A stretch of 64,000 nt of DNA from assembly GCA_946186375.1 (NCBI GenBank), contig CAMHMZ010000001.1, positions 62,001 to 126,000 of the forward strand. Reading direction: 5' to 3'. Positions 3,402 through 61,124 of the stretch are shown piece by piece. A program made the position numbers and the translations under genes. The notes under the pieces were generated by a model that was not told the DNA's origin, searched no databases, and saw nothing but the letters and a program-made list of their open reading frames with translations. Origin of the DNA: an uncultured Clostridia bacterium. Lineage in GTDB: Bacteria > Bacillota > Clostridia > Oscillospirales > Oscillospiraceae. Position 1 is the first letter of the stretch, and every line of letters begins with the position of its first letter.

Positions 3402-3428
3402 GCAGTGCAAAACGCACTGCTATTTTTT
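3402..3428 (+). terminator. Second terminator or leader attenuator
   Basis: A 7-bp stem GCAGTGC / GCACTGC, loop AAAAC, then TATTTTTT. It lies only 36 nt before the start of the AAA ATPase gene, so it may act as an attenuator in the leader of that operon rather than as a spare terminator. Confidence 0.6.
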
Positions 3429-3463
3429 ACGAGCCTCTGGCTCAGAAAGGAAAGGAGAAAAAC

Positions 3464-25660: not shown

Positions 25661-25759
25661 ACATGTCCACTTGTAGACCTTTTGGCCACATAAAAGTAAA
25701 CATGTAAACAAGTACATATGTACACATGTAAGCATGTAAACATGTGGACATGTGTATAT
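25633..25759 (+). repeat. Octamer array, cluster 3 (GTNNACAT)
   Basis: Fourteen units on an exact 8-nt period, six at 25633-25680 and eight at 25696-25759, split by a 15-nt gap. Examples: GTACACAT, GTAGACAT, GTAAACAT, GTGGACAT. The GT and ACAT positions are nearly constant; the middle two vary. There are no spacers between units. Confidence 0.85.
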
Positions 25760-33200: not shown

Positions 33201-36200
33201 GTGGCATTAGCATTAAGAAGATCGACTCGGTAACCACGAGCGCGCAGGGTAATGCAACACTGGCCGGCGCAGAGTTCTCCATCTACAACGCTTCTGACAA
33301 ACCTGTCATGATTGATGGAACTGAATATGCCAAGGGCGCTCTCGTAAAAGTCATTACCGCAAACAGCTCTGGCGTTGCTTCAACCGGAAACGGTGTTCTG
33401 CCTTACGGCAAGTATACTGTGAAAGAAACAAAAGCCCCGACCGGATACAAGCTCAATTCTTCCTGGTCGGCTACGGTCGAAGTAAATAAGGCTAATGTGA
33501 TTGCCGGACCTGACTGCCCTGAACCCGTCATCCGCGGCGGCGTGAAGGTCACCAAGAGTGACGTTGAGCGCGGCGCAGGACAGGGCAACGGAACATTCAA
33601 GGGTGCAGTATTTACGATTTACAATGCGTCCACGCACAACGTAACGGTCGAAGGCAAGGATTGCGCGCCTGGCGCCGTAGTCAAGACGATTGAAACAAAC
33701 GATGCGGGCGTCGCCTCCACTGCAGCCGACCTCCTGCCTTACGGCAAATACACAATGAAGGAGACAAAGGCTCCTGCTGGATATAAGCTCAACACTGAGT
33801 GGAGCAAGGAATTTACAATCACAACCGATGGGAATATCGTCAACGCAGGAACATGCACTGACGAAATTCTCCGTGGCGGCCTTAAGGTCACAAAGATCGA
33901 CAAGACTTCGACAACAGCCCAGGGTGCTGCCGAACTGAAGGGCGCAGAATTCACGATCTACAACGCCTCGGATAAGCCTGTGGTCGTTGAAGGGCACACT
34001 TACGCAGTAGGTGAAGCTGTCAAGACGATCGTTGTCAAAGATAACGGCGTTGCATCTACTGCAAAAGACCTTCTTCCGTACGGTAAATACACAGTCAAAG
34101 AAACAAAGGCACCTAAGGGCTACAATCTGAACACGTCCTGGTCCAAGACTGTTACGATCTCGTCGGCGAACGTGATCGTTGACGCAGCCACCTGCCCTGA
34201 TACGGTCATCCTCGGCCGCGTGAGGGTTCAGAAGAAAGACGCTGACATGAACACGCTTCAAGGTGACGCTATCTTCAAGGGCGCTCAGTTCACGATTTAC
34301 AACGAGAATGAAGCTCCTGTGACTGTGAACGGAACAAGCTACGAAAAGGGCGCGGCCGTTCTGATGATTGAGGCGTCCGAAGCCGGTGTTGCGACATCCG
34401 CTAAAGTACTTCCTTATGGTAAGTATTCGATCAAGGAAACAAAAGCTCCTGTCGGATACAAACTCAACGCTGAATGGCGTCAGGAATTCACAATCGCTGA
34501 AGAGAATGTTATCGTAGAAGTCGGAACCTGCGCCGAGCCTATCATCCGCGGCGGTATTAACGTACAAAAAGTTGACGCTGATCAATCTGCAAATCCGCAG
34601 GGAGGCGCAGTGTACGCAGGCGCAGAATTCACGATCTACAATGCATCAGGCAATCCTGTGCTTGTCGAAGGCAACGTGTACGCGGCCGGTGACGCGGTTA
34701 AGACAATCATCGCTGACGAGACTGGTTTTGCGCAGACCGAAAAAGACCTCCTGCCATACGGCACATATACAGTCAAAGAAACAAAGGCCCCGGCTGGATA
34801 CATGCTGAATGAAGACTGGTCCAGCACGGTAAAGGTGACAAAGCAGAACACGCGTGTTTTTGCCGGACAGTGTCCAAACATTGTTATGCGCGGCGGCATA
34901 AAGGTCGTTAAGCAAGACGCCGAGCACGACGGTATTCAGGGTGAAGCCACGTTCGAAGGCGCAGAATTCACCATTTATAACAATTCAGGCAAGTCCGTCG
35001 TTGTCGATGGCGAGACACTCGAGAACGGCGCCGCGGTCAAGACGATCGTAACAGACGAAACAGGCATGGCGGCAACTGCCATCGACCTGCTTCCGTACGG
35101 TAAGTACATCGTCCGTGAGACGAAGGCTCCTGTTGGATACGATCTGAACCGCGATTTCGAAGTTGAAGTCTTTGTGAACAGCAACGAATTCATGTTCGAT
35201 GCTGGTGTATGCAAGGATAACGTGACGCGCGGCGGCCTTAGCGTCCAGAAGATGGACGCTGGTCTCGATGCGGCGCATCCGTACGGCGATGCCTCCTTCG
35301 AGGGTATCGTGTTCTCGATCAGCAACGCTTCCGCAAATGACGTTGTTGTTGGCGGTGAGACATTTGCCCCTGGCGCAGAAATCACGCAGATCGTCACTGA
35401 TAAAACAGGTTTTGCAACCACAGAAAACGATCTCCTTCCTTACGGCAAGTACACAGTTAGAGAGATCAGCATTCCGGAAGGCAACGGATACGCTCTGAAT
35501 GAGAACTATGTGTCCACCGTCATGGTCGATACGTATCATGTCGTTATTGAAGCCAACCCGTGCAAGGACGAAGGTAACATCTTCGGTTCCATCCGGATCA
35601 GCAAGTTCGATGCGGATACGCTACTTGCAAAGCCGCAGGGCGATGCTTCTCTGGCTGGTGCGAAATTCGTAATCATCAACGAGTCCAAGAATCCTGTGAT
35701 CGTGGACGGTCACACCTACGGTGTCGGCGACGAGATCATGGAAGTCACAACAGACGAGAACGGCGTTGCTGTAACAGAGCAGGTGTTCCCGATGGGCACG
35801 TACAGAGTTAAAGAAGTCGAGCCCTCGGAAGGCTATTTGAACAACGATGATTGGAGTGCTGTTGCTGTCATCAGAGAAGACGGGCAGCAGTATGACATCA
35901 GCTTCGATGATTCCTGCAAAGAAATCGTGATTCGCGGCGGTGTGCTTGTTCAGAAACTCGATAAGGACACCAACGAAAATCACGGTATTGGCGGTCTTGA
36001 GATGAAGGACGCTGAGTTCATCATCATAAACCGCTCCGCTGAGCCGGTCGTAGTAAACGGCATTTCTGTCAATCCTTATGATGGCGAGTTCGATCTCAAC
36101 AGTATTGACGAAAGCGCTGTTGTCATGAGAATTTACACAGATGAAGACGCAGTCGCCTCCACAGGTGATCACGATCTGCCTTACGGCACCTACGAGATCC

Positions 36201-39200
36201 ACGAATCTGTGGCGCCGGCTGGATACAGACTCAATACAGAGTGGGTCAAGACATTTAAGATTGAAGAAGATGGAACGATCGTTCGCCTTGACGGCGAAGA
36301 CGCCATCATTGATGAGATCAGCAGAAGTGACCTGCAGTTCAACAAAGAAGGCGTGAAGGGCAACAACTACGAGCCTCTGCCCGGAGTTGTGTTTAAGCTC
36401 ACGAACGTTGAGACCGGCGAAAGTCATATTGTTGTGACAGACGTCAACGGTTCGTTCGACAGTGCATCCAACCCGCACTCCTACAAGACGAACGCCAACG
36501 ACGCGGCTCTGCTGCCTGACGGAACGCTTGACGAGAGCAAGATCGATCCAGAAGCCGGCATTTGGTTCGGCGGCGGACGTCCTGTTGACCAGGCACCTAA
36601 TGGTATGACAGTCGGTGCTCTCACCTGCGGAACTTATCTGCTGGAAGAGCTCGAGTGTGAAGGGAACAGACGTTACGACCTCTGCGACCCGAACCCGCTT
36701 ACTGTCATCATTTACAAGAGGCCTATTACAAGCGAATCCTATCACTTCGGCACAGTTACTGACTCTGCTCCTGAAGGCATCAGAACAGTCCTCCTCGATA
36801 AGGACACTCAGATCCATCAGGCCGCCGCAGACGGAAAGATCACTCTGATCGACACCGTTTCGTTTGACGGCGTAAGGCTCGGTAAGACTTACACTGTGAA
36901 GGGCGTTCTTATGGATAAGGCGACCGAGGCACCGCTCGTTGTTGACGGAAAGACCATCGAGGCCGAGAAGACGTTCGTTGCGATGGCAACAAGCGGAACA
37001 GTGAACATCGCGTTCACGTTTGATGCTTCCGAACTCGCTGGCCGCACGGTGGTTGCTTTTGAGAAACTTTATCTCGGAACGAAGCTCCTGGCTGAGCATG
37101 AAGATATCGACAGCGAAGACCAGACAGTTTCCTTCCCGAGCATCAGAACGATCGCCCATAACGAAAAGAACGGAAAGATGATTGACGCTTCTGAGGAAAT
37201 CACCCTTATTGACACCGTGTACTACTCCAACCTCGAGCCTGGTGTAACGTACGAGCTCAAGGCTCAGCTGATGGATGCAGACACCGGTAAAGAACTCAGA
37301 GACGACAACAATGATCCGATCGTAGCTACGGCTACATTCAAGCCGAAATCCAGAAATGGTCAGGCTGATGTGACATTCAGAATCAAGGCATCTGTAATTG
37401 AAGGAAAGATCGGCGTGGTCTTTGAAGAGCTTTACATTGGCCCTGTGAAGATCGCGGACCACAAAGATATTGACGATGAAGACCAGACGATCTACTTCCC
37501 GAAGATCCGCACAACGCTGGCAGACAGCGCAGGCGCAAAGATCATTTATGCCGGCGAAAACGTCGAGCTGATTGACGTTGTGAAGTATGAAGGTGTAGTG
37601 CCTGGGCAGACTTACAAGCTCACAGGAACGCTTATGAGCCGCGAAACCGGTTCGGCCATCCTCGACAAGAACGGCGATAAGATCGAATCTTCCGCCTCGT
37701 TCACAGCGAAAGAGTCTTCAGGCACAGTAGAAGTCAAGTTTGTATTCGACGCTTCTGCGTTGGATGGCAGCGTTCTCGTCGCTTACGAGACGCTATTTGA
37801 CGAGAATGGACCTGTTGTGTCTCACGAGGATATCAACGATGAAGGCCAGACGGTAAGAATTCCGTCCGTAAAGACAAGCGCACATGACGCCGCTGGTAAC
37901 AGCGAGCTTTATGCCGACGAGGTCGTAACGATCATTGACGACGTCAAGTACGACGCGCTGATCGTTGGCGAGAAGTACACCGTCAAGGGTGTGCTGATGG
38001 ACAAGGAAACCGGAGCGGAAGTTCTGAAAGCAAACGGAAAGCCCGTTGTGGCTGAGAAGACATTTGTTGCTGAAGCCGAATCCGGCACGATCAGCCTCAC
38101 GTTCGAACTGAAGCGCATGGATCTGGCTGGACGCACATTGGTCGCGTTTGAGAAGCTGTACTACGGTGAAGCGCTCATTGCTGACCACAGCGATATCGAC
38201 GACGAAGACCAGACAATCCACTTCCCGAAGATTCGCACGAGCTTCGTTGACGATGCCGAGCATCATGTCGCGCAGGTTGGAACAGTAAAACTTACTGACC
38301 ACGTATACTATGAGAACCTGAAGCCTGGCCATGAGTACACCGTAACTGGTGCGTTGGTCAGACGCGTAAACGGCAAGGCTGTGAAGTTGCTTGACGAAAG
38401 CGGCGACCAGTATGTGGCTGAAGCGAAATTCAAGGCTGACGAAAACGGAAGCGGTGTGGTCGACATCGTATTTGAGATCGACAGCACACAGCTCGCCGAT
38501 CAGTCGGTGGTTGCTTTTGAGAAGCTACTTGATCTTGATCGTGTTATCGCGCTGCATGAAGATGTTGACGACGAGGACCAGACGGTACACTTCCCGACGA
38601 TCTCCACCGTTGCAACAGACGGCAAGCGTAACAAGATAGTTGACGTTTCTCACGGGAAGAACGCCAAGATCAAGGACGTTGTTCGTTATAAGAACCTCGT
38701 TCCCGGACTTGAGTACACGGTTTCCGGCGTACTTAGAGTGAAGGAAAACGGCGGCGTTGTGAAAGACGCCAATGGTGAAGCAATCGTCTCTGAAGTGAAA
38801 TTCACTCCTGAGAAGAGTTCTGGAAAGGTGACTGTAGAGTTCTCCATCCCGTATGAGAGCGTTCAGGGTAAGCATCTCGTAGCAATTGAAACATTGCTCC
38901 TTGATGCAAGCACGGTCGCTGTACACGACGATATGGAAGACGAGGATCAGACGGTTTATGTGCCGTATGAGCAGAAGGTCTACAAGTACAACGCAACGAA
39001 CCACAAGCCCGTTGCCGGTGCTGAATTTGAAATCACAGATATCACATTCGGTGCGGCGGAGAATGGCCAGGTTCAGACGGCTATCTCCGACAAGACAGGC
39101 TATGTCTACTTCGACGGTCTGCCCGGCCATGAATACGCGCTCAAGGAAACGCGTCTGCCTGCGGGTTACATTGCAATGGGCCCGACAGAGTTCTTCGTGA

Positions 39201-40051
39201 CTGTAAAGGAAGACGGCTCTCTGGAAGGCGATCTGGAGATCGGCAACGTCCGAGGCGGTACAGTTGTTATCACGAAGGTCGACGTCATCACAGGCGATCC
39301 TGTTGAGGGCTGCGAAGTCACTATCTACAGAATCAAAGAGAAGGTAGACAAGAAGGCAACTCAGAAAGCCATTGAAGAGGCTGCCGCAAAGGCTGGCGTT
39401 CCTGTTGAAGAGTTCGACTCCTCCAAGGTCGAGCCGATCATGAAGGAAGCAAGCCGCAAAGAAGTGTTCAAGCAGACTACCGACAAGAACGGACGCATCT
39501 ACTTCTACACAACGACTCCTGGAAAATACGTGTACAAAGAGACAATGACACGTACAGGCTACTATCTCAACGAAGATGAATACACCTTCGAAGTCGCTGA
39601 AGATCTCACTGTGACCGGAACGGTTCGCTTCCACAACGTACCGTTCGGAACGGTTGTCATCAAGAAGTTCGACAAGTCTGGTGCTCCTCTGCAGGGTGCT
39701 GAGATCGCGATTTACGAAGAGACGACCAACAAGTTCCTTGGTAAGGGTGTGACCGGCGCCAACGGAAGACTCTACTTCGTATCTCCCGGACCCGGAAAGT
39801 ACTACTTTGTAGAAACAAAGGCGCCTGAAGGATACAAACTGATCTCTGATCACTTCCACTTTGAGATTGCTTCGGATTACACCGTGACGGGCACTGTGTC
39901 CATCATCAACGATCGTACTCCGGAGATCACAAAGACAGGCGACACAAACAACATCTGGCTGTGGGTCGGCTTGGCTGCTTTCGCAGTAACCGCGACAGTT
40001 GGAATCGGCATCTACTTCCTGAAAGGGAAGAAGAGCCGCAAAGAGGAGTAA
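30245..40051 (+). CDS. Giant wall-anchored adhesin with SpaA and VaFE repeats
   Basis: A 3268-residue surface protein. Signal peptide 1-35 (AYA-A). Residues about 50-240 look like a thioester domain, with the cysteine in 'PVYCMQPY' and a glutamine in 'AALQAMIFD' as bond partners; such domains attach covalently to host surfaces. Two SpaA/Cna-B-like domains follow (about 400-640), then twelve tandem units of about 112 residues (644-2023), each with 'RGG..V.K.D', 'GAEFTIYN', 'LLPYG.Y..KETKAP.GY.L'. Six VaFE-type repeats (2179-2906; 'VAFEKL', 'HEDIDDEDQT') should form internal ester bonds. Three SpaA domains follow (2910-3225). The sorting signal is 'ITKTGD' (about 3228), then a membrane helix and a basic tail. 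No sortase gene is in the window. Likely role: attachment or mating-pair contact. Confidence 0.85.
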   Translation: MKISSKRIISFILFFVMLATCLPTGAMVPEAYAADEAYRQETTGYFTMKNRDVKIMGKLPYRFIKPGTNEQSGQGQFGPDTGVDVVYFHQLTINNVKTPVYCMQPYANAGSYYTPNNEQAKTLWNAWKVAHITVYDAYGPYAGDNDEYGNGKATQTLNYNAADIAAHALYWGYPSYIDTNYTNEENQAALQAMIFDISCGFVVTKNGEYVRRRYSKFHTNGDETDVSNYYMSIGFSDPSYGVDNANVIKAYNALLKRMNSSSTNVGIPSFANESSIGVNDDDANIIDLSFDSATNKYKATVTDSLGFAKYYDFEETKNGITVEQNGNKVTISVDKSTVDGWNAGSIHKMSTKKSNTPNVNVSVNDVNLYGDTSDTNYQAMVMYIGETPEQQKPKAYIAVRAESMGEAQLIKVSDNPDLTSGNDCYSLAGAVYGVYKKKADANNGENEVGRLTTKANGKSNVLDLSAGNYWVKELTAPKGFALDTVAHKITVEPGETAILNVTDEAKSDPVPIWLKKVDAAIGTEGETSGKMGLAGAEFTVKYYDGIYNTVAKAEESGDPTRTWVIKTNENGVADLRRESCFVSGDDLYYDGGEVAIPIGTVVIQETKAPAGYILNAKKFLVKIDESGSASVIETYNAPIIPETAIKGGVKVKKVDEERAAGQGNATLAGAEFTIYNKCGKSVIVDGTTYANNAAVKTIETNSNGVASTAKDLLPYGTYLIKETKASPGYKINSDWSKTFTISENEVIIDLDTMPEPLIRGGLKLNKIDHELSGGQGAAELGGAKFTIYNASDKPVVVEGTTYAVGAAVKVIETNDSGVATTGNGILPYGTYTVKETKAPKGYKLNSTWSATVNITTASVVTVDNNCPDDVIRGGAKVTKSDVERADGQGNGTYEGAEFTIYNKSGKPVVVAGKTYADGAAVGKIVTDGTGSGSTAADLLPYGSYTMKETKAPAGYKLNTEWSKDFTIRTEGSIANAGICKDEILRGGISIKKIDSVTTSAQGNATLAGAEFSIYNASDKPVMIDGTEYAKGALVKVITANSSGVASTGNGVLPYGKYTVKETKAPTGYKLNSSWSATVEVNKANVIAGPDCPEPVIRGGVKVTKSDVERGAGQGNGTFKGAVFTIYNASTHNVTVEGKDCAPGAVVKTIETNDAGVASTAADLLPYGKYTMKETKAPAGYKLNTEWSKEFTITTDGNIVNAGTCTDEILRGGLKVTKIDKTSTTAQGAAELKGAEFTIYNASDKPVVVEGHTYAVGEAVKTIVVKDNGVASTAKDLLPYGKYTVKETKAPKGYNLNTSWSKTVTISSANVIVDAATCPDTVILGRVRVQKKDADMNTLQGDAIFKGAQFTIYNENEAPVTVNGTSYEKGAAVLMIEASEAGVATSAKVLPYGKYSIKETKAPVGYKLNAEWRQEFTIAEENVIVEVGTCAEPIIRGGINVQKVDADQSANPQGGAVYAGAEFTIYNASGNPVLVEGNVYAAGDAVKTIIADETGFAQTEKDLLPYGTYTVKETKAPAGYMLNEDWSSTVKVTKQNTRVFAGQCPNIVMRGGIKVVKQDAEHDGIQGEATFEGAEFTIYNNSGKSVVVDGETLENGAAVKTIVTDETGMAATAIDLLPYGKYIVRETKAPVGYDLNRDFEVEVFVNSNEFMFDAGVCKDNVTRGGLSVQKMDAGLDAAHPYGDASFEGIVFSISNASANDVVVGGETFAPGAEITQIVTDKTGFATTENDLLPYGKYTVREISIPEGNGYALNENYVSTVMVDTYHVVIEANPCKDEGNIFGSIRISKFDADTLLAKPQGDASLAGAKFVIINESKNPVIVDGHTYGVGDEIMEVTTDENGVAVTEQVFPMGTYRVKEVEPSEGYLNNDDWSAVAVIREDGQQYDISFDDSCKEIVIRGGVLVQKLDKDTNENHGIGGLEMKDAEFIIINRSAEPVVVNGISVNPYDGEFDLNSIDESAVVMRIYTDEDAVASTGDHDLPYGTYEIHESVAPAGYRLNTEWVKTFKIEEDGTIVRLDGEDAIIDEISRSDLQFNKEGVKGNNYEPLPGVVFKLTNVETGESHIVVTDVNGSFDSASNPHSYKTNANDAALLPDGTLDESKIDPEAGIWFGGGRPVDQAPNGMTVGALTCGTYLLEELECEGNRRYDLCDPNPLTVIIYKRPITSESYHFGTVTDSAPEGIRTVLLDKDTQIHQAAADGKITLIDTVSFDGVRLGKTYTVKGVLMDKATEAPLVVDGKTIEAEKTFVAMATSGTVNIAFTFDASELAGRTVVAFEKLYLGTKLLAEHEDIDSEDQTVSFPSIRTIAHNEKNGKMIDASEEITLIDTVYYSNLEPGVTYELKAQLMDADTGKELRDDNNDPIVATATFKPKSRNGQADVTFRIKASVIEGKIGVVFEELYIGPVKIADHKDIDDEDQTIYFPKIRTTLADSAGAKIIYAGENVELIDVVKYEGVVPGQTYKLTGTLMSRETGSAILDKNGDKIESSASFTAKESSGTVEVKFVFDASALDGSVLVAYETLFDENGPVVSHEDINDEGQTVRIPSVKTSAHDAAGNSELYADEVVTIIDDVKYDALIVGEKYTVKGVLMDKETGAEVLKANGKPVVAEKTFVAEAESGTISLTFELKRMDLAGRTLVAFEKLYYGEALIADHSDIDDEDQTIHFPKIRTSFVDDAEHHVAQVGTVKLTDHVYYENLKPGHEYTVTGALVRRVNGKAVKLLDESGDQYVAEAKFKADENGSGVVDIVFEIDSTQLADQSVVAFEKLLDLDRVIALHEDVDDEDQTVHFPTISTVATDGKRNKIVDVSHGKNAKIKDVVRYKNLVPGLEYTVSGVLRVKENGGVVKDANGEAIVSEVKFTPEKSSGKVTVEFSIPYESVQGKHLVAIETLLLDASTVAVHDDMEDEDQTVYVPYEQKVYKYNATNHKPVAGAEFEITDITFGAAENGQVQTAISDKTGYVYFDGLPGHEYALKETRLPAGYIAMGPTEFFVTVKEDGSLEGDLEIGNVRGGTVVITKVDVITGDPVEGCEVTIYRIKEKVDKKATQKAIEEAAAKAGVPVEEFDSSKVEPIMKEASRKEVFKQTTDKNGRIYFYTTTPGKYVYKETMTRTGYYLNEDEYTFEVAEDLTVTGTVRFHNVPFGTVVIKKFDKSGAPLQGAEIAIYEETTNKFLGKGVTGANGRLYFVSPGPGKYYFVETKAPEGYKLISDHFHFEIASDYTVTGTVSIINDRTPEITKTGDTNNIWLWVGLAAFAVTATVGIGIYFLKGKKSRKEE

Positions 40052-42100: not shown

Positions 42101-44587
42101 ATGGCAAAGAAACTGAAAAGCGTCGCCAGTACGCAGCAATTCCTTCCTGTTCTGGACGTGCGGGATGACATTGTGCTTCTGAAAGATGGAACCTACGCGA
42201 AGCTTATGGAGTTTTCGCCGATCAACTTCGAACTGAGATCTCCGGAGGAGCAAAACCAGATCATAGACGCTTTCGGCTCAGCGCTGAGAACATGGCCGAA
42301 CGACGTGCATATCAAAATCGTGACAACGCCTTCCAATGTAAGCGATTTCGTTGATGAAATTCAGAAATGCATGGAGACAGAGCCGAGCGAAAAATGCAGA
42401 GAGCTCCAGCAAGACCAAATCGACATGCTGGAAAGCATCAGCCAGAATCAGGGTGTAACAAGACGCTTCTTCGTTTCGTTTCCGTATGAGCTCAGCGGCG
42501 GTTTTCGCCGAACCCCGACGTTCAAAGAAATCAAGCAGTCTATGGACCGTCAGGCCAGAAACATTCAGGCAACGCTCGAAAATTGCGGAAACTCCCTTGT
42601 ATCTACGAGTGACAGAGACTACGTGTTGAGCGCGCTTTATACTTGCGCGTGCAAGGCTCAGTCTGACATCATCACATGGGAAGAACGCAAGGCGTATGTG
42701 GTCGACCGATACAAGGAAAAGTTCGGATACAACATCAACGAGAACAGGATCCCTGCGTCAGATTTCTTCGCTCCGGAGCGCATGGACAGCTCGTTTAGCA
42801 TCAACTACATGATCATAGACGGAACGTATGTAGCACATTGTTATCTCCCGTCAAACGCTTATCCTGTGCGCGCTTATGCCGGCTGGCTACAGGTTCTGTT
42901 CAGCTACATGGATGACGTGTATGTGGACTTTTGGATCCACAAAGAATCTGTAAAAGAGATCCAGCCGAAGCTGCAGTTCGCCTTAAAAAACAACAAGATC
43001 AAAGAGAAAAACACTGACGATATCTCGCAGGACTATGACGACATCGAAGCTGCGGTAAACGCCGGTTATTATATCAAGCAAGCGCTTTCTTCCGGTGACG
43101 ACTTCTGCTATATGTCCACAATGCTGACCATTTTTGCCGACTCTCTGGAAGAGTTGAAGAACAAATTCCGCGAGATGTCCAACTACTGCATTCGAAACGA
43201 CATGATGATTCGGTACTGCTCCGCGCAGCAGGATGATTGCTATCTTTCATCACTGCCGTGCATGCCGATCAACAAAGGTATCTTCTCAAAAGCGAAGCGA
43301 AATATCATGGCAATGCAGCTTGGCTCATGCTATCCGTTCACCGCGTATGAACTGTGTGACAAGGGCGGCGTTTTCCTTGGAATCAACGCTCGCTATGGGT
43401 CTCCGGTGTTCGTAAATCTTTTCGATACGGCAAAATATCAAAACGCAAACATGATGATATTCGGGCCTTCAGGCTCTGGTAAAACATACACGCTTCTCTC
43501 GATGCTTCTCAGAATGCGTCAGAAAAACATTCAAGTATTCGTCATCGCGCCGCTCAAAGGTTTTGAGTTTATGCGCGCGTGTACGGCGACTGGCGGCGAG
43601 TTTATTCGCATCAATCCTGGTTCGCCGCAGAACATAAACATCATGGAAATAAGAAAGAAAGACACGTCGGACAGCGACATCATTGACGGCGTTGATGACA
43701 CGGTCAAAGGCTCGATTTTGGTCAACAAGATCCAGCAGTTACACAGATTTTTCTCTCTGATATTCACCGACATGGATGCAATCGAGAAGCAGATTTTGGA
43801 CGAAGCGCTCGTCAAAACTTATGCCCGTTATGGTATCACATCCAGAAACAAGAGTCTCTTGGATCCCGCCAGCGGTCAATATAAAAAGATGCCCATTCTT
43901 GGAGATCTCCACAAAGAACTCGAAAAAATGGGCGAACCAGCTCGCCGCATGTATAACCTGCTTACGCGTTTCGTGACCGGTTCAGCGAAGTCTTTCAACA
44001 TGCCGACGAACGTAAACCTCGACAACAAATTTGTTGTCATTGATGTCTCTGCGCTGACGCCGGAGCTTCTTCCGATAGGAATGTTTATTGCGCTCGACTA
44101 CGTTATGGATAAGGCGCAAGCCGACAGAACGAAGCGCAAAGTAATTGCTATCGACGAGATGTGGAAGCTCATGAAGGCATCTAAAATGTCGTCAGAATTC
44201 GTAGTAGAGGTGTTCAAGATCATTCGTGGTTACGCCGGAAGCGCTATCGGTGCGACGCAGGATCTCGATGACGTTCTCGCAAATGAATTCGGTGCAGCGA
44301 TCATAAACAACAGCAAAACGAAGCTTCTTTTGCCTATGGATAAGAAAGAAGCCGACGCTGTTTCATCTGTAATTGAGCTCACAGCTGAAGAGATGAAGCA
44401 GTTGAAACGAACAGAAACCCAGAGCACTTCGACAGGAAAACGTAAAGCGTCGAAGGCATTAATGGTAGCAAACACGAACCATATTTTCATTAACATTCAA
44501 GCTTCGAAAACGGAGCATGACCTTATTACTACTTCTGCTGACGACCTGCGGAAATTGGCGCACATGAATCAAGCCGAAGTGAGCTAA
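42101..44587 (+). CDS. virB4: VirB4/TraE-type conjugation ATPase
   Basis: An 828-residue ATPase that powers assembly of the secretion channel. The N-terminal 400 residues form the VirB4 N-domain (GVTRRFFVSFPYELSGGFRR). The P-loop 'GPSGSGKT' is at 455-462 and Walker B 'VIAIDEMWKLM' has D685 and E686. The downstream 'GATQDLDDVL' and 'KTKLLLPM' match the family's sensor region. It ends with a coupled gene 16 nt later. It is complete and unbroken, unlike the second VirD4 copy at 51.7 kb. Confidence 0.9.
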   Translation: MAKKLKSVASTQQFLPVLDVRDDIVLLKDGTYAKLMEFSPINFELRSPEEQNQIIDAFGSALRTWPNDVHIKIVTTPSNVSDFVDEIQKCMETEPSEKCRELQQDQIDMLESISQNQGVTRRFFVSFPYELSGGFRRTPTFKEIKQSMDRQARNIQATLENCGNSLVSTSDRDYVLSALYTCACKAQSDIITWEERKAYVVDRYKEKFGYNINENRIPASDFFAPERMDSSFSINYMIIDGTYVAHCYLPSNAYPVRAYAGWLQVLFSYMDDVYVDFWIHKESVKEIQPKLQFALKNNKIKEKNTDDISQDYDDIEAAVNAGYYIKQALSSGDDFCYMSTMLTIFADSLEELKNKFREMSNYCIRNDMMIRYCSAQQDDCYLSSLPCMPINKGIFSKAKRNIMAMQLGSCYPFTAYELCDKGGVFLGINARYGSPVFVNLFDTAKYQNANMMIFGPSGSGKTYTLLSMLLRMRQKNIQVFVIAPLKGFEFMRACTATGGEFIRINPGSPQNINIMEIRKKDTSDSDIIDGVDDTVKGSILVNKIQQLHRFFSLIFTDMDAIEKQILDEALVKTYARYGITSRNKSLLDPASGQYKKMPILGDLHKELEKMGEPARRMYNLLTRFVTGSAKSFNMPTNVNLDNKFVVIDVSALTPELLPIGMFIALDYVMDKAQADRTKRKVIAIDEMWKLMKASKMSSEFVVEVFKIIRGYAGSAIGATQDLDDVLANEFGAAIINNSKTKLLLPMDKKEADAVSSVIELTAEEMKQLKRTETQSTSTGKRKASKALMVANTNHIFINIQASKTEHDLITTSADDLRKLAHMNQAEVS

Positions 44588-48082: not shown

Positions 48083-48772
48083 ATGCAAATAGCACCGATA
48101 AAAATCATGTGCCCGATATGCGGGACGGTCGATTGGTACGACATTTTGATGAGCGCGTTTATCGCGGCAAGGGAACCGGATTTAGACCTTAGGCCGCCGG
48201 AGATGCTGCGCAGCTCGATGTCTATGTGGGCTCATGAGTGCAAGAAGTGCAGCTACGTGATATCTCAGTCAAAGAACCCGTTTGTTGATCCCGTCTTTTT
48301 AAATTCGGAAAAATACATCGATTGTGACGGCGTAGCTCTGCGCAGCGATCTGGCGAAGCGATTTTTCAGGGAGTACCTGATCGCGTTGGAAGTCAATGAT
48401 AAGGAAAAAGCTGCGTACGCCATAAGGAATGCCGCATGGGTTTGCGACGATAACGGTGACGGGCTAAACGCGATAGAGTGTAGAAAGCGGTTGTGTAATA
48501 TCTTGCCGGATGTAATAAAAGCGTCTCGCAGATTTCCAAAGATGTTAAAGCGAGAAGACAGAAAGAAAACAGAAAACTTGATCTTACTGTATGCTGACGC
48601 GCTGAGGCGTTCAGAGCAGGACGCGAAGCTGTATGCGCTGTGCAAAAAGATATTATTCGGGAGCAAACGTCTTGGCGAAGCGCTGTTGTATCAGGCGGAG
48701 TTGGCAAAGACGAACGACAGATCCTGTCACACATTCGACGATCTTCGGGAAAGCGAAGATAGTAAACAATGA
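48083..48772 (+). CDS. Zinc-ribbon protein, DUF2225-like
   Basis: A 229-residue cytosolic protein with ribosome binding site GTGAGGGAG. The N-terminus has two C-x-x-C pairs, 'CPICG' (residues 10-14) and 'CKKC' (about 55-58), forming a zinc ribbon; the rest is helical, of TPR type (YLIALEVNDKEKAAYAIRNA). This arrangement resembles DUF2225. Function unknown. Its stop overlaps the traX start (ATGA). Confidence 0.6.
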   Translation: MQIAPIKIMCPICGTVDWYDILMSAFIAAREPDLDLRPPEMLRSSMSMWAHECKKCSYVISQSKNPFVDPVFLNSEKYIDCDGVALRSDLAKRFFREYLIALEVNDKEKAAYAIRNAAWVCDDNGDGLNAIECRKRLCNILPDVIKASRRFPKMLKREDRKKTENLILLYADALRRSEQDAKLYALCKKILFGSKRLGEALLYQAELAKTNDRSCHTFDDLRESEDSKQ

Positions 48773-49530
48773 GCGATGTCACGAAGAAGCTTGGCGGCGT
48801 AGGCTTGACCGGTGCAAGTCTGAAATGGATCGCTCTGGTCACAATGCTTTTAGACCACATTGCATACGCGGTTCTATATAAGGCGTACATAGTTCCGAAT
48901 TCGATTTCCTCGGGTGCAACGTTATATGGGATATATAGGATCATGCGAGCGATTGGCCGCGTATCATTCCCCTTGTTCTGTTTTCTGATAACGGAGGGAT
49001 GGAGGCATACAAGCAACAGAGCCAGATATGCTTTTAGATTGTTTGTGTTTGGCCTATTGTCTGAGATACCGTATGATTTGGCATTTCAAGGTGCACTGGT
49101 GAGCATGTCGCATCAAAACGTATTCTTTACACTATTCCTCGGCTTGGTTGCCATAGCTGTTTGGGACAGGGTGACAGAGGACAATAAAACGTGGGTCGGA
49201 AAATGTCTTGGCACCGTTCTTGTGTTTGGCGTGGCGTCTATTGCGCAGTTGACCGATACAGATTACGGATTGGCGGGCGTGTTGATCATCTTTGTCTTTC
49301 ATGTATTCCGAGGTCATACGCTGTTGATGTTTATCGCCTATGTCGGTGCGCTTGGTGTGTCTGTTGGTTTCGGTTCGTCAGAAATTGAGATGTTCGCATC
49401 GGCTGCTTTTCTGCTGATGCTTCTATATAACGGTCAAAGAGGGAAACAGAACAAATATCTGTTTTATGTTTTTTATCCGGCGCACCTTTTAGTGCTGGCC
49501 GGTCTGAGATATGTATTGATGTGGATTTGA
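48769..49530 (+). CDS. traX: TraX-family membrane protein
   Basis: A 253-residue polytopic membrane protein. The opening 'GASLKWIALVTMLLDHIAYA', followed by 'RAIGRVSFPLFCFLITEG' and 'RLFVFGLLSEIPYDLAF', are the conserved blocks of the TraX family, which includes the F-plasmid enzyme that acetylates pilin. In Bacillota TraX homologues occur both on elements and in chromosomes, and their substrate is not known. About eight membrane helices are visible. It is coupled to the upstream zinc-ribbon gene and 17 nt from the VanZ-like gene. Confidence 0.85.
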   Translation: MSDVTKKLGGVGLTGASLKWIALVTMLLDHIAYAVLYKAYIVPNSISSGATLYGIYRIMRAIGRVSFPLFCFLITEGWRHTSNRARYAFRLFVFGLLSEIPYDLAFQGALVSMSHQNVFFTLFLGLVAIAVWDRVTEDNKTWVGKCLGTVLVFGVASIAQLTDTDYGLAGVLIIFVFHVFRGHTLLMFIAYVGALGVSVGFGSSEIEMFASAAFLLMLLYNGQRGKQNKYLFYVFYPAHLLVLAGLRYVLMWI

Positions 49531-50247: not shown

Positions 50248-51588
50248 ATGACGATCTACACGTCATACGACATCAGAATTCCGAACCACGATCTGAATAA
50301 AGTGTTTGCAGACACCGCAAATAAGTATCGCGCTGCGGTGGACTTCTTTATTTGGGTTCGCATGAAGGAAGCTGCGTCGTTTGCCGACACCAAAAACCAG
50401 CACGCCGCTTTGCTTATTATGGAGCAATTGACCAACCGCACGAAGAACAACCCCGACCCGAAGTATGACTTCGGTGAAGAATTTTACAAATTCCCATGTT
50501 ATTACCGTCGTGCGGCTATCGTCGAAGCTCTTGGCGCGGTGTCGTCTTACGAGAGTCTGCTCGCCAATTGGAACCAAACTCACGAAGGGAAGAAGCCTGG
50601 CCTACCCAAAGCCGGTTGCACATATCCAACACTTTATAGAGATAACACCTTTGTTCGTGTGGATGATCTCACCGCTGAGATCAAGGTTTGGATCAACAAC
50701 ACGTGGGATTGGGTAACGATCCCGATTCGGAAAACGGATGTTTCTTATATCAAGAAACACTGCTCCGATCGAACCGAGTGCGTTCCGACGCTTACGCGTC
50801 GCCATAAATGCTGGACGCTTTCCTTCGCATTTAAAGAAGAGGCTGTTTTGTCCAAAATCCAGATCGAGGATCAGATCATCCTTGCTGTTGACCTCGGCAT
50901 CAATAGCGCCTGCGTTTGCACAGCGATGTGCGCAGATGGCACTATCGTCGGAAGAAAGTTTCTTGATCTCCCGGCAGAAGAAGACTCTCTGCGCCATGCA
51001 CTGAACAAAATAAAAAAGGCACAACAGAATGGAAATCACAAGAATCCAAAGCTGTGGGCAAAAGCCAAAGGCATCAACGACAGGATATCTGTTCTGACAG
51101 CTCAATTCATTGCTGACACCGCTGTGCTCTATTGCGCGACGACCGTTGTCTTTGAGCATCTGAATACCAGAGGCAAGAAGCGCGGAGGTCGTCGCATGCG
51201 GCAGAGGATTCACCACTGGAGAGCTGATTACGTGCAGCGAATGGTGACCGACAAGGTCCACCGCCTCGGTATGCACGTGACTCGCATCAATCCATACGGG
51301 ACGTCTCGTCTCGCTTTCGACGGAAGCGGGAAAGTGGTCAGAGGCAAAGATGCCGGATTCGCTACAGCGGCGCTGTGCCGCTTCCAGAACGGAAAGATCT
51401 ACAACTGCGATCTTAACGCCAGTTACAACATTGGCGCGAGATACTTTATACGCGAGATCCTAAAATCCTTGCCGGTAACGGCAAGGTTGTGCATTGAGGC
51501 TAAAGTCCCTCAATGCAGTAAGAGAAGCACCTGCACCTTGTCCACTCTAATTAGCCTTAATGCGGAACTTGCTGCTGCGGCAGCATGA
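50248..51588 (+). CDS. tnpB: TnpB RNA-guided nuclease
   Basis: A 446-residue protein with a GAAAGGAGG ribosome binding site. The RuvC-like catalytic residues are all present: D215 in 'ILAVDLGINSA', E303 in 'TVVFEHLN' and D388 in 'YNCDLNASYNIG'. The usual four-cysteine zinc finger between the last two is degenerate; the segment reads 'GTSRLAFDGSGKVVRGKDAG' then 'ALCRFQNGKIYNC'. TnpB cuts DNA matching a guide carried at the 3' end of the adjacent omegaRNA, helping the element persist. The last 50 codons overlap the start of that RNA. No tnpA partner. Confidence 0.85.
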   Translation: MTIYTSYDIRIPNHDLNKVFADTANKYRAAVDFFIWVRMKEAASFADTKNQHAALLIMEQLTNRTKNNPDPKYDFGEEFYKFPCYYRRAAIVEALGAVSSYESLLANWNQTHEGKKPGLPKAGCTYPTLYRDNTFVRVDDLTAEIKVWINNTWDWVTIPIRKTDVSYIKKHCSDRTECVPTLTRRHKCWTLSFAFKEEAVLSKIQIEDQIILAVDLGINSACVCTAMCADGTIVGRKFLDLPAEEDSLRHALNKIKKAQQNGNHKNPKLWAKAKGINDRISVLTAQFIADTAVLYCATTVVFEHLNTRGKKRGGRRMRQRIHHWRADYVQRMVTDKVHRLGMHVTRINPYGTSRLAFDGSGKVVRGKDAGFATAALCRFQNGKIYNCDLNASYNIGARYFIREILKSLPVTARLCIEAKVPQCSKRSTCTLSTLISLNAELAAAAA

Positions 51589-57151: not shown

Positions 57152-57725
57152 GAAGCCGATTCTTACAGACAGGTTGATCCTTCGTCCATTCCGTATGACT
57201 GACGCCGAAGACGTGTTCGAATACGCGTCCGTCGACGGCGTTGGCCAGATGGCCCGTTGGATTCCGCATAGAGATATCGAGATCACAAAGGCTTGGCTCA
57301 AGAAGACCATCGAAAATCAGAAAACATATGCGATCACATACCGCGGAAAGGTGATTGGCACTATCAGTATCAACCATTCCAAGGAAGACATGTTCCCGCA
57401 GTTCAAAGACCGCGAATGCAAGAGCCTCGGCGCGGTCGTATCAAAAGACTTCTGGGGCAAGGGCTTTGCCTCTGAAGCGCTGGAAGCGGTCATTACATGG
57501 CTGTTTACCGGCACACAGGTAGATGTTCTCTTTGCCTCTCACTACGACTTCAATGAACGCTCAGCGAGGCTGCAGCATCATTGTGGACTACACAAGCTCG
57601 GAGAGACCTCGGAATACGACGATATATGGAAGAAAGATGTGAAATTTATCCACAATGTCCTGACTAAAGAGGAATGGCTGGACGGACGTTGGGCCGATAT
57701 TGTTGGCAAAATCACCGATTGTTGA
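57129..57725 (+). CDS. GNAT acetyltransferase (RimJ/RimL type)
   Basis: A 198-residue enzyme. The ATG at 57129 (MDPIVKVEKPILTDRLILRP) is the family's natural start; a longer frame upstream overlaps the previous gene. The 'ILTDRLILRPFRMTDAEDVF' opening, 'SLGAVVSKDFWGKGFASEAL' (acetyl-CoA binding) and 'FASHYDFNERSARLQHHCGL' are the conserved blocks of the RimJ/RimL group that acetylates N-terminal amines of proteins or small molecules. The substrate cannot be read from sequence. Confidence 0.8.
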   Translation: MDPIVKVEKPILTDRLILRPFRMTDAEDVFEYASVDGVGQMARWIPHRDIEITKAWLKKTIENQKTYAITYRGKVIGTISINHSKEDMFPQFKDRECKSLGAVVSKDFWGKGFASEALEAVITWLFTGTQVDVLFASHYDFNERSARLQHHCGLHKLGETSEYDDIWKKDVKFIHNVLTKEEWLDGRWADIVGKITDC

Positions 57726-57750
57726 CGTTTTTGTAAACCGTGCATAAAAC
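57722..57750 (+). promoter_or_regulatory. Possible promoter of the methyltransferase locus
   Basis: TTGACG (57722-57727), 17-nt spacer, TAAAAC (57745-57750), ahead of the leader peptide and methyltransferase. Both boxes are imperfect. Confidence 0.4.
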
Positions 57751-57812
57751 ATACACATCGGCAATAATACAAAATTTTGCCGATATGCAGTAGTGCTGAA
57801 AGGAGCTTTTGC

Positions 57813-57848
57813 ATGGACTACAAAAATCAACGTTCGGCGGTAATGTAA
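57813..57848 (+). CDS. 11-residue leader peptide
   Basis: ATG at 57813 seven bases after AAAGGAGC, one of the best ribosome binding sites in the region, encoding MDYKNQRSAVM and then TAA. It lies 82 nt before the methyltransferase start and 47 nt before the hairpin that hides that start. Too short to be an enzyme; the position suggests a translated leader. Confidence 0.4.
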   Translation: MDYKNQRSAVM

Positions 57849-57895
57849 GCTAGTTGCTTGTTGTTGTGAGATATTTGTTTGAGAAAAAAATGTTG

Positions 57896-57921
57896 CCTCC
57901 CGAACGGAATCATTCGGGAGG
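57896..57921 (+). promoter_or_regulatory. Hairpin sequestering the methyltransferase ribosome binding site
   Basis: Perfect 9-bp stem CCTCCCGAA / TTCGGGAGG with an 8-nt loop. The right arm contains GGGAGG, the ribosome binding site eight or nine bases before the ATG at 57931. When the hairpin is closed, translation should be weak. Confidence 0.6.
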
Positions 57922-57930
57922 TATCTGTTT

Positions 57931-59223
57931 ATGGCGAACAAGAATCTGACAGCAGCGAAGAAAGCTAAGAATGACGAGTTTTATACACAGTTTGAAGACA
58001 TTCAGAAAGAACTGACTCATTACAAAGACCATTTTAAGGATAAAATCATCTTTTGCAACTGTGATGATCCGACATGGAGCAACTTCTGGCGATATTTTCA
58101 TCTCAATTTCGAGTTCTTTGGCATCAAGAAACTAATCGCGACACACTACGATGCCACGCAGAGTACATACAAAATGGAATACACGGGCGGAGATGACACA
58201 AACTTTGAAGCCGGCGTCGTGACGCCGCTTATGCAAAACGGAGATTTCAGGTCTCCTGAATGTGTTGAGTTACTGAAAGAGGCTGATATTGTTGTTACAA
58301 ATCCAATGTTTTCACTTTTCAGGCAGTATGTGGCTCAACTGATTGAGTATAAGAAGAAATTCGTGATAATGGGCAACATGAACGCAGTTACATATAAAGA
58401 GTTTTTCCCGTTGCTTAAAGACAATGAAGTTTGGGCGGGATACAGTTTCAATAAGACTTTGGTTTTTGCCGTTCCGGATACATACGACACAAGCAAAAGT
58501 ATTGGGCAGGATGAGTTTGGGAGGAAGCTTGTAAGAGTGCCGGCTATATGCTGGTTTACGAATTTGGATATTCCAAAGCGCCACGAAGAAATCAAACTGA
58601 CAGAAAAATATGATCCAGAAAGGTACCCGCAATACGAAAACTACCAAGGAATCAACGTGGATAAGGTGACAGATATTCCAAAGGACTATTTCCCGTGCTG
58701 GTATGAGTGCCCGCATGTAGATGAATGTGTTTATGCAAAGACAGAGGAAAAAGAAGACAACGCTCTCTGCGAACAGTCATGCAATGGTGAGATGGGTGTT
58801 CCGATAAGCTTCATGGATAAACATAACACAGAGCAATTTGAGATACTTGGCAATGCGGGATCTTATTCGGGTGACGGAAGTGTAGCGGATGAATTATTCG
58901 TATCGGATTCTTGTGGTCTGCCTGATGAAGAGAAGAGAAGAGAAGAGAAGAGAAGAGAAGAGAAGAGAAGAGACGCAAAGTGTACAAGAGAATCATCATT
59001 CGCAGGACGAAGAAAATGTAACGGTATCATCGGAGTTCCAATCTCGTACACAGACAAGCATTGTTGCGAGAAATTCAGAATCATCTGGCAGGCATCAGGG
59101 AACACAAGAGCGTCGACAGATAGGACGATCCTTAAAGAGCTTGGATATATTGAGAATAGAAACGACAGAGGTGGTTGCACAGTCATTCACGGCAAACGAA
59201 CATACGGAAGGATCTTCATTTAA
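57931..59223 (+). CDS. EcoRI-family adenine methyltransferase, switchable C-terminus
   Basis: Encodes 430 residues as read here. The N-terminal 280 residues are an EcoRI-type N6-adenine methyltransferase: 'KNDEFYTQFEDIQKEL', 'FCNCDDPTWSNFWRYF', and the catalytic motif N-P-M-F at 124-127 in 'DIVVTNPMFSLFRQYV', followed by 'FVIMGNMNAVTYKE'. From residue 284 the first C-terminal module begins (CNGEMGVPISFMDKHNTEQF). It runs into an (AGAAG)8 tract and, with eight units, continues in frame into module 2 (from 59017), ending 'GKRTYGRIFI'. With seven units the protein would instead end 'KVYKRIIIRRTKKM' at 361 residues, the normal length and end for this family. With nine it would enter the frame of module 3. 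The gene therefore looks phase-variable, not broken. Confidence 0.85.
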   Translation: MANKNLTAAKKAKNDEFYTQFEDIQKELTHYKDHFKDKIIFCNCDDPTWSNFWRYFHLNFEFFGIKKLIATHYDATQSTYKMEYTGGDDTNFEAGVVTPLMQNGDFRSPECVELLKEADIVVTNPMFSLFRQYVAQLIEYKKKFVIMGNMNAVTYKEFFPLLKDNEVWAGYSFNKTLVFAVPDTYDTSKSIGQDEFGRKLVRVPAICWFTNLDIPKRHEEIKLTEKYDPERYPQYENYQGINVDKVTDIPKDYFPCWYECPHVDECVYAKTEEKEDNALCEQSCNGEMGVPISFMDKHNTEQFEILGNAGSYSGDGSVADELFVSDSCGLPDEEKRREEKRREEKRRDAKCTRESSFAGRRKCNGIIGVPISYTDKHCCEKFRIIWQASGNTRASTDRTILKELGYIENRNDRGGCTVIHGKRTYGRIFI

Positions 59224-59629
59224 AAAGTGCAACGGTGAAATAGGTGTTCCAATAAGTTTTATAGATAAGCTTGCTCCATCTCAATTTGAAATCATTGCCG
59301 CAGATTATGAAGTTGCCGGACAAGTCCAGTTGGATGACGGAAAAACTGGAACAGGTCGTTTTTACGTGAGTGAAACGTATGGTCTGAACGATGAACACAC
59401 ACACACACACACAGGATGTACAGCAGGATTGTCATTCGCAGGACGAAGAAAGTGTAACGGAATCATCGGTGTGCCTATCTCATTCCTCGATAAATACTGT
59501 GAAACGCAGTTCAGCATCGTCGGAGTCTTCAACCACGGGACAGATGGTGACTGGGACTTCTCGCCAGCAAAGTGTAGCGGAAAAGAGAAGTATAAACGGC
59601 TGGCAATTCGCAGAAAGGCGAAAATGTAA
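58889..59629 (+). CDS. Alternative methyltransferase C-terminus, modules 3 and 4
   Basis: An overlapping frame (+1 relative to the main methyltransferase frame) that is open through the (AGAAG) tract and the whole of module 2, then encodes module 3 (59228; CNGEIGVPISFIDKLAPSQF) and module 4 (59453; CNGIIGVPISFLDKYCETQF), ending 'EKYKRLAIRRKAKM'. It would be joined to the methyltransferase when the AGAAG count is 9 or 6, giving 567 residues with (AC)9. With (AC)8 or 11 it would end right after module 3 as 'MYSRIVIRRTKKV' (509 residues). It has no good ribosome binding site and is probably not translated alone. Confidence 0.6.
   Translation: MNYSYRILVVCLMKRREEKRREEKRREETQSVQENHHSQDEENVTVSSEFQSRTQTSIVARNSESSGRHQGTQERRQIGRSLKSLDILRIETTEVVAQSFTANEHTEGSSFKKCNGEIGVPISFIDKLAPSQFEIIAADYEVAGQVQLDDGKTGTGRFYVSETYGLNDEHTHTHTGCTAGLSFAGRRKCNGIIGVPISFLDKYCETQFSIVGVFNHGTDGDWDFSPAKCSGKEKYKRLAIRRKAKM
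58931..58970 (+). repeat. (AGAAG)8 phase-switch tract
   Basis: Eight perfect copies of a 5-bp unit inside the methyltransferase gene, encoding EEKRR repeats. Because 5 is not a multiple of 3, each gain or loss of a unit changes the downstream frame. Count mod 3 = 1, 2 or 0 leads to the module 1 end, to module 2 or to module 3. Confidence 0.9.
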
Positions 59630-59867
59630 TGGAGTGATTGGTGTACCTCTATCATTCTTCAACGTTTATTGCACCAGTCAATTCACAATTCTTGGAATGT
59701 GCGAAAACATGGATTTGTACGGCCTGAAAACAAAAGTTTACACATCGCAAGAATGTAGGAATAAATATTTTGAATTATTCAACAAGAAAGGGACGTACGA
59801 CATGAACGCGGCCGGAGTAATAAACGGGAAGAAAGTCTATCAACGTTTACTAATAAGGCGACGTTAG
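59391..59867 (+). CDS. Alternative methyltransferase C-terminus, module 5
   Basis: A third overlapping frame, open across the (AC) tract and all of module 4 (QDVQQDCHSQDEESVTESSV...), then encoding module 5 from 59625 (CNGVIGVPLSFFNVYCTSQF) and ending 'GKKVYQRLLIRRR', a typical family terminus. It would be joined when the AC count is 10 or 7, giving a 647-residue protein if the AGAAG tract is also set to 9 or 6. No independent ribosome binding site is evident. Confidence 0.6.
   Translation: MNTHTHTQDVQQDCHSQDEESVTESSVCLSHSSINTVKRSSASSESSTTGQMVTGTSRQQSVAEKRSINGWQFAERRKCNGVIGVPLSFFNVYCTSQFTILGMCENMDLYGLKTKVYTSQECRNKYFELFNKKGTYDMNAAGVINGKKVYQRLLIRRR
59395..59413 (+). repeat. (AC)9 phase-switch tract
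   Basis: Nine and a half AC units at the end of module 3, encoding HTHTHT. Counts of 8, 9 and 10 give the module 3 end, module 4 and module 5. Confidence 0.9.
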
Positions 59868-59978
59868 TTTCCATTGCATGCGTTACTATAGAGGCATTCT
59901 ATGTGCAGATCGTTTTCGGTGAAAGTTCAAGAAAATACTTTAATGAATTTAAAAAAATGTAAAGGATGGTGATTTAAA

Positions 59979-61124
59979 ATGCAAATAACAAGACGACAGA
60001 TTTTGATCCGCGATGTTGTCCATGGATATGACGTCGAAAGCGATGGTCATGTTGTTGGATACGGAGGGAGGTTAGACATCCGCCCGATATACCAGCGCGA
60101 ATTCTGCTACAAAGACAAACAAAGAGATGCGGTTATTGATACAGTCAGAAAAGGTTTTCCGTTAAATGTGATCTACTGGGCAACCAAAAGTGACGGTGGT
60201 TTCGAGGTGCTGGACGGGCAGCAGCGCATCCTGTCGATTTGCCAATATGTGAATGGGGATTACGCAGTTGATTACCGTTTCTACCACAATTTAACGGAGC
60301 CCGAGAAAAACAGGATTCTGGATTACCCGCTCGATGTGTATCTGTGCGAGGGGGACGATGAGGAAAAATTAGGTTGGTTTAAGACGATCAATATCAGCGG
60401 CGAAAAACTGACAGATCAAGAACTACGCAACGCTGTATATGCGGGCGTTTGGACAGTGGCCGCCAAAAAGCTTTTTTCAGCCAACAATTGTGTTGCATAT
60501 AGGATCGGAAAAGAATATGTTTCCGGCACACCGATCCGACAGGATTTTTTAGAGACAGCACTAAGTTGGATCGCAAACAAAGAAGGAAAAACAATCGAGC
60601 TGTATATGGCCGAACACCAAAACAAAGAGGACGCTGACGAGCTCTGGAACTACTTCGAAACCGTCATCGACTGGGTCAAGGAAAAGTTCCCAAACTACAG
60701 AAGGGAAATGAAAGGGCTTCCGTGGGGTATATGGTACAATGAATGTATGAACGGGGAGCACAAGGGGCAGATCATTGATGAATCGCCGTCTGTGATTGAG
60801 GCTCATTTCAGAGATCTGCTTGACGATGATGAGGTACAGAGCGTCAAAGGCATTTACACATATATCGTGACAGGGCTTGAAAAGAACCTGAACCTCAGAC
60901 AGTTCGACGTAAAGATCGCCAGGAAAGTCTACGAGCGCCAGGGCCACAAATGCCCATATTGCGACCGCAGTGTCGATGGCCGTACATATCCGGAAGGGAA
61001 AACAGAGTACGAATTCGAGGAGATGGAGGCAGACCATATCCTCCCGTGGAATGCTGGTGGAAAAACAGAAGAGGACAACTGTCAGATGCTCTGCAAGTAC
61101 CACAACGGCCACAAGGGCGGCTAA
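59979..61124 (+). CDS. DUF262-HNH nuclease next to the methyltransferase
   Basis: A 381-residue protein. The N-terminal domain is DUF262 (ParB/Srx-like NTPase fold): 'DIRPIYQREFCYKDKQRDAV' and the signature 'VLDGQQR' (D79). The C-terminal 65 residues are an HNH nuclease: 'CPYC' (C325), 'EADHILPWNAGG' (H353) and 'CKYHNGHKG'. Proteins joining DUF262 to a nuclease include GmrSD, which attacks modified DNA, and SspE, which senses phosphorothioated DNA. Placed directly after a methyltransferase, it is likely the restriction arm, possibly sensing modification state rather than a fixed site. 111 nt separate it from module 5; the start follows AAAGGATGGTG. Confidence 0.75.
   Translation: MQITRRQILIRDVVHGYDVESDGHVVGYGGRLDIRPIYQREFCYKDKQRDAVIDTVRKGFPLNVIYWATKSDGGFEVLDGQQRILSICQYVNGDYAVDYRFYHNLTEPEKNRILDYPLDVYLCEGDDEEKLGWFKTINISGEKLTDQELRNAVYAGVWTVAAKKLFSANNCVAYRIGKEYVSGTPIRQDFLETALSWIANKEGKTIELYMAEHQNKEDADELWNYFETVIDWVKEKFPNYRREMKGLPWGIWYNECMNGEHKGQIIDESPSVIEAHFRDLLDDDEVQSVKGIYTYIVTGLEKNLNLRQFDVKIARKVYERQGHKCPYCDRSVDGRTYPEGKTEYEFEEMEADHILPWNAGGKTEEDNCQMLCKYHNGHKGG

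Follow-up and report, generated by a model that had tools for sequence, protein, structure and literature searches.

Phase variation through simple sequence repeats (SSRs) is usually treated as an on/off phenomenon. Type III mod phasevarions have a non-triplet repeat within the methyltransferase gene and, in the descriptions available, are turned on and off through a premature stop, and in Type I hsdS inversion and recombination systems, as far as the available accounts go, one modification system shuffles several target-recognition domains. In the Type I system NgoAV of Neisseria gonorrhoeae, slippage of a late polyG tract in the specificity gene hsdS1 joins on or splits off a second recognition part, whereby the methylated motif changes from GCAN8TGC to GCAN7STCA (available sections of PMC9577141). 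In Helicobacter canadensis, C-terminal phase variation is described for genes in which a tract near the 3' end leads to three alternative C-termini (available sections of PMC2823697). In its available sections, a 2026 review attributes phase-variable methylation to on/off expression and to hsdS recombination, and neither these sections nor those of a second review describe a design like the one reported here (PMC13076061 and PMC12707154). A search of the open-licence PMC literature returned no description of the design among the matches listed.

The locus lies in a 64-kb stretch of DNA (hereafter the window; positions 62001-126000 of contig C1) from a 3.29-Mb genome in 133 contigs that is 83.9% complete. 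The core of the methyltransferase matches the Pfam family EcoRI_methylase (PF13651) at 401.3 bits against a curated cut-off of 26.4 (E 5.3e-120), which bears out the EcoRI-family identity proposed in an earlier, sequence-only reading of this DNA. Catalytic motif IV (residues 124-127) is NPMF, as in 13 of the 228 homologues in which the motif was found; 207 have NPPF. The core is followed by five copies of a C-terminal module, at exactly the starts that had been proposed and distributed over three frames (Table 1). All five share one plan: the start is constant (CNG..GVP.S), the part that follows is variable, and the strand that closes the module is of the Y.RI.I type. One slippery tract lies inside module 1 and the other inside module 3, both 5' of the closing strand. 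The second is the (AC)9 originally reported, ending at 59412 or 59413, whereas the first, originally given as (AGAAG)8, was measured as a perfect period-5 run of 47 nt. At the cut-offs used, no other long perfect non-triplet tract occurs in the 64 kb, and none of 100 dinucleotide shuffles of the window contained a five-base run of at least 4 copies or a two-base run of at least 8. The gene combines long non-triplet tracts within its coding region, one mark of SSR phase-variable genes, with the mark of C-terminal phase variation, a late tract and alternative C-termini in different frames.

Table 1. Features of the methyltransferase locus and its neighbor (nucleotide positions in the 64-kb window)
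Feature	Position	Strand	Details
Inverted repeat	57887..57930	+	18-nt arms, 78% complementary, 8 nt between
Methyltransferase core	57931..58779	+	M.EcoRI family (PF13651), motif IV NPMF
Module 1, constant start and variable part	58780..58926	+	CNGEMGVPISF..., frame 0
Slippery tract 1	58927..58973	+	(GAAGA)9.4
Module 1, natural end	58974..59021	+	KVYKRIIIRRTKKM, then stop; frame 2; one unit fewer, 361 aa
Module 2	59017..59223	+	frame 0; present state, 430 aa
Skip reading across module 2	58974..59227	+	frame 1, open; chance p = 0.11
Module 3, start and variable part	59228..59394	+	frame 1; one unit more
Slippery tract 2	59395..59413	+	(AC)9
Module 3, natural end	59414..59457	+	RMYSRIVIRRTKKV, then stop; frame 0, 509 aa
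Module 4	59453..59629	+	frame 1, 567 aa
Skip reading across module 4	59414..59624	+	frame 2, open; chance p = 0.29
Module 5	59625..59867	+	frame 2, 647 aa
DUF262 (GmrSD_N) and HNH protein	59979..61124	+	381 aa; PADLOC REase_II

When the two tracts were changed in silico by one repeat unit in either direction, the five predicted product lengths were reproduced exactly, and each of the five count states ends in a complete M.EcoRI-type C-terminal module. At tract 1, one unit fewer closes module 1, the present count reads module 2, and one unit more passes module 2 and enters module 3. From module 3, the same three changes at tract 2 close module 3, read module 4, or pass on to module 5. Successive modules overlap, the same DNA encoding the close of one and the opening of the next in differing frames; nucleotides 59001-59025, for example, are read as RRTKKM followed by a stop in frame 2 and as AGRRKCNG in frame 0. 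A direct repeat (105 nt, 73%, spacing 436 nt) links the module-1/2 junction to the module-3/4 junction, and because it joins both, the locus has probably grown by duplication of a two-module unit. An Rfam scan of 57500-60100 gave no match.

This arrangement departs from each of the described systems. Type III mod genes, in the accounts available, are turned off in the alternative frames, whereas here every frame leads to an intact alternative end. The hsdS systems, as described in the same partial literature, rely on recombination, whereas at this locus repeat tracts would do the switching; only one inverted repeat of at least 14 nt occurs in 57800-60000, 5' of the start codon, and the five module matches in the window's own genome (83.9% complete) all fall at this locus, with no further copies. 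NgoAV has two specificities and a separate S subunit, and the available sections describe neither a tandem three-frame domain cassette nor chained tracts (PMC9577141). The H. canadensis case involves polyG only, in eight genes whose tails range from 0 to 104 residues, and in the sections available no homology among the tails is stated and the variation is not presented as a specificity switch (PMC2823697). Known pairs of an M.EcoRI-family methyltransferase with a DUF262-HNH protein (MTase_II and REase_II) have the same core family and the same partner. However, among 80 loci fetched by core similarity, only 5 have a non-triplet tract between the core and the partner gene (the C-terminal zone), and 75 have none.

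The tract-bearing design is thus uncommon. Counted by region, the 80 loci hold 3 tracts of at least 20 bp in the 29.9 kb that separate core from partner, 2 in the 23.8 kb immediately 5' of the core, none in 74.3 kb of core sequence and 4 in the remaining 500.8 kb, a distribution that speaks for the switch. Module matches were found in 13 of 391 genomes of the class, with more than one module in the window genome only; in the family of G447, 10 of 41 genomes have module matches and 4 have adjacent modules. In the window's genus, the methyltransferase family is present in 7 of 102 genomes. The tract-free loci read in that genus (L176 of G559, L177 and L178 of G512, L179 of G510) consist of one module and the partner gene, L159 of G022 has a form with three alternative tails, and L180 and L181 have no module by the motif used. 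Single modules and no tract in the gene were also found in the plasmid records L183 (Psychrobacter) and L184 (Moraxella). Modules in tandem need not imply a switch: in L112 (a virus contig, 4016-4366), two complete modules are joined in one frame with no tract.

Relatives with the layout were nevertheless found in the kind of genome search that the sequence-only reading had suggested. A natural end, a second module and a skip to a third follow the tract in L021 (a rabbit Clostridia MAG, (ACAG)12), L148 ((GACA)13), L149 ((ACAG)14), L113 ((ACAG)4) and L115 ((A)9). L150 has the same layout with a stop in its skip frame. In L110, (A)11 precedes a complete module in each of the three frames, and in L111 the choice is two-way only. 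In a second form, one tract is followed by three alternative tails: L159, from the window's genus, with (AG)21; L151 with (G)9; L030 with (GA)6; L061 with (G)10; and L074 with (AGCA)15. The last two are carried under strain-collection names, Fibrobacter intestinalis ATCC 43854 and Anaerococcus degeneri DSM 29674 respectively. Going by record titles, three-frame layouts are spread across Clostridia, Anaerococcus, Fibrobacter, an Abditibacteriota bacterium and virus contigs, with differing repeat units, which supports the proposed tandem-frame switch as an architecture. The window locus is the most elaborate member found of this wider set and is not unique.

Some other members of the family have tracts in a different position. 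In L013 (an Acinetobacter MAG), (GAAAC)4 at 3417-3436 lies just 5' of the conserved start of the M.EcoRI-family gene, and in L015 (Neisseria polysaccharea) the same is true of (GGCTT)7 at 3896-3930; the position of these tracts suggests ordinary on/off phase variation. Contig C21 of G450 holds two M.EcoRI-family genes about 11.5 kb apart (L158, 1900 and 13417), and its opposite strand has weak matches of module size.

Several relatives appear to have switched, as far as their predicted proteins show. Of 231 proteins, 46 have one or more RAEQ motifs beyond residue 250, and these fall into 9 that end naturally with RR(T/I)VYARICIR, 7 that read a second tail (ELLSPGSDGWHI...), 25 that continue into the next module and 5 others. 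A five-residue repeat, SRAEQ, fits three 5-nt units, and the protein lengths of these relatives step by five residues (643, 648, 653, 658, 663), with the number of repeats varying among predicted proteins of the SRAEQ type. P0148 and P0198 are 99.3% identical over the 455 positions before the tract and differ in their tails; P0195 and P0165 are 98.2% identical over the 499 positions before theirs. The two homologue protein lists each comprise the best 120 of about 8000 scored. Genome scans for the DNA of the SRAEQ relatives found only the known L110 contig or other clades (8 of 398 genomes, the window's included). Four of the related contigs (L029, L148, L149 and L150) end inside a tract, as expected if repeat counts vary in the sample, and limits of assembly could also explain this.

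The frames that skip a module were said in the sequence-only reading to be open to a degree unlikely without selection. They are open, but with the protein and codon usage held fixed from the tract to the end of the module, both of the window's skip frames fall within chance (Table 1), and the argument for selection is weak at this locus taken singly. The case for selection consequently rests on the relatives. The +1 skip frames are open in nine of the ten tested, the window included, at chance p values from 0.0012 to 0.29, with five between 0.001 and 0.05; the tenth, in L150, contains a stop. The layout of L110 further requires a second open frame across module 1, and that frame is indeed open (p = 0.0032). 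The skip-frame peptide of P0013, in a search that requires shared 5-residue words, matched only itself among 112 candidates, which fits a frame that is kept open rather than a functional linker.

The modules appear to be exchanged among methyltransferases in the manner of target-recognition domains. Where cores are at least 70% identical, the variable regions are unrelated in 855 of 989 pairs (110 of 120 proteins parsed, many of them near relatives; the pairs are not independent), including cores up to 98.7% identical. Conversely, 94 of 1321 pairs with cores below 58% identity have a variable region in common (at least 50%). This swapping on near-identical cores lends indirect support to the view that the module affects the choice of target. 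Structural evidence bears mainly on the core. The model of the homologue P0031 (pLDDT 89.9, pTM 0.87) has a predicted Rossmann N6-adenine methyltransferase core, with the variable part between two C-terminal strands, and VIA-align placed this core with KsgA/Dim1, M.TaqI, MmeI and HsdM, with few rows past residue 277. Foldseek gave weak matches only, no structural match from either method covers the module, and a search of solved structures by sequence returned nothing useful. Structure prediction had also been proposed for the window's modules; a model of the 430-aa product was made, and its confidence over the modules is low (pLDDT block means of 36-76 beyond residue 280).

Immediately downstream of the methyltransferase is a gene that the sequence-only reading had left out, for a DUF262-HNH protein that makes the locus a Type II-like restriction-modification pair. 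The adjoining methyltransferase and endonuclease genes of a Type II system are recognised here by profile only (PADLOC MTase_II, 3.8e-107; REase_II, 1.7e-122). A DUF262-HNH gene lies within 3 kb downstream of the methyltransferase in 72 of the 74 genome loci that leave space for it (at least 1.5 kb), and this neighbor is probably the restriction partner. Of the eight virus-contig loci with a core, three have the partner (L011, L012, L111) and five lack it (L010, L110, L112, L113, L115). In the vicinity of GmrSD homologues, Type I components are reported to rank with the most strongly enriched domains (available sections of PMC4619093), and the word EcoRI is absent from the main text of that paper. 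The partner does not follow the module: when partners are at least 85% identical, 49 of 61 locus pairs have unrelated modules (79 loci parsed, including duplicates of the same locus, L059/L156 and L053/L152), and in L027 and L031 the partners are 99.7% and the cores 97.9% identical while the modules are unrelated. Two explanations would fit: the nuclease is guided to its target by the methyltransferase, as in Type I systems, or specificity is not set by the module. Because of the module swapping pattern, we favor a nuclease that would be aimed through the methyltransferase.

Taken together, these comparisons make it probable that the locus belongs to a Type II-like restriction-modification pair in which microsatellites drive a multi-way switch of specificity, carried in this case on conjugative DNA. 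A rather unlikely alternative is that the repeats do switch the C-terminus while the ends tune activity, stability, dimerisation, partner binding or on/off state and leave the target site unchanged. In its favor, the module is replaced beside a partner that stays up to 99.7% identical, which a classical Type II pair, with its matched specificities, would forbid. The lack of a matched structure with the module on DNA and the resemblance of the upstream L013 and L015 tracts to ordinary on/off switches also agree with it. The alternative is opposed by the pattern expected of a specificity domain, with unrelated variable regions on nearly identical cores and one variable type shared by distant cores, and by the finding that nearly every readout is a complete module rather than a truncation.

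That finding comes from reading the three frames behind 15 tracts in 14 loci, one tract per switch, where 41 of 45 readouts end in the last-strand motif. The test omits L029, in which the tract runs up to the contig end, as well as the T9 adjacent to (ACAG)4 of L113 and the L013 and L015 tracts upstream of the gene. The 15 tracts are not independent, since L021 and L148-L150 share a host family and L113 and L115 one metagenome. The four misses comprise near misses in L030 (YGRIFL) and L110 (YKRLFA), an immediate stop in one frame of L111 and the stop in L150. The motif catches 53 of 73 natural ends, and it was met in only 1 of 146 off-frame readouts of 73 tract-free homologues and in 6 of 9000 shuffles. 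A locus in which C-termini duplicated in tandem are decaying after frameshifts, and the microsatellites are incidental, is consistent with the 105-nt direct repeat as a sign of duplication and with the broken skip frame of L150, but is hardly credible, and already disfavored, against those readouts and controls, the recurrence of the layout with different repeat units and the three states seen in relatives. The same results speak against ordinary frameshifted debris, and the three-frame layout reads as a recurring design. Several endings made at once from one DNA state, by programmed ribosomal frameshifting or transcriptional slippage, are scarcely more probable than decay. The homopolymers of L110 and L115 would be plausible slippage sites; however, 2- and 5-base units such as those of the window are, to our knowledge, not usual slippery sites for ribosomes or polymerases, and the repeat number differs among the predicted proteins of relatives.

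Under the preferred reading, a specificity switch, slipped-strand mispairing would alter the counts at the window's two tracts and so pick the C-terminal module of the M.EcoRI-family adenine methyltransferase. Each tract would offer three outcomes, to close the current module, read the next or skip to the one after, and two tracts in series would give five endings. If the module is a target-recognition domain, a new ending is predicted to direct marking to other DNA sites, and a single slip may re-aim modification and restriction together. In a fuller version, slightly less likely than not, the design would be a genetic multiplexer: microsatellites would select one of three complete modules that are encoded in overlapping frames, tracts could be chained to reach five or more states, and one module would aim both the marking and the DUF262-HNH nuclease of a Type II-like pair. 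The use of all three frames behind a tract, with an apparently intact end in each, would make repeat slippage a multi-way selector, and if the module sets specificity, one gene could produce up to five methylomes with no recombinases. The constant partner raises the question of how restriction and modification stay matched when the module changes.

The window also encodes a coupling protein (22668-25139), a TraG-like ATPase (42101-44587), TraX (48769-49530), a CHAP/NlpC protein and a phage-tail-lysozyme-type protein, and no tRNA was found in it. The carrier is probably a conjugative element, on which an altered methylation signature would be of advantage where hosts differ in their restriction. 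Beside the coupling-protein gene are two adjoining imperfect 8-nt tandem arrays (25619-25753). The inverted repeat upstream of the methyltransferase carries in its 3' arm a ribosome-binding-like sequence, GGGAGG, just 5' of the start codon; pairing of the arms would occupy this sequence, and translational control is possible. A 446-aa protein (50248-51588) matches a Cas12f1-like TNB domain at 25.1 bits, just below the curated cut-off of 26.3, and is perhaps of the transposon TnpB type. Finally, a single open reading frame of 3268 aa extends from 30245 to 40051.
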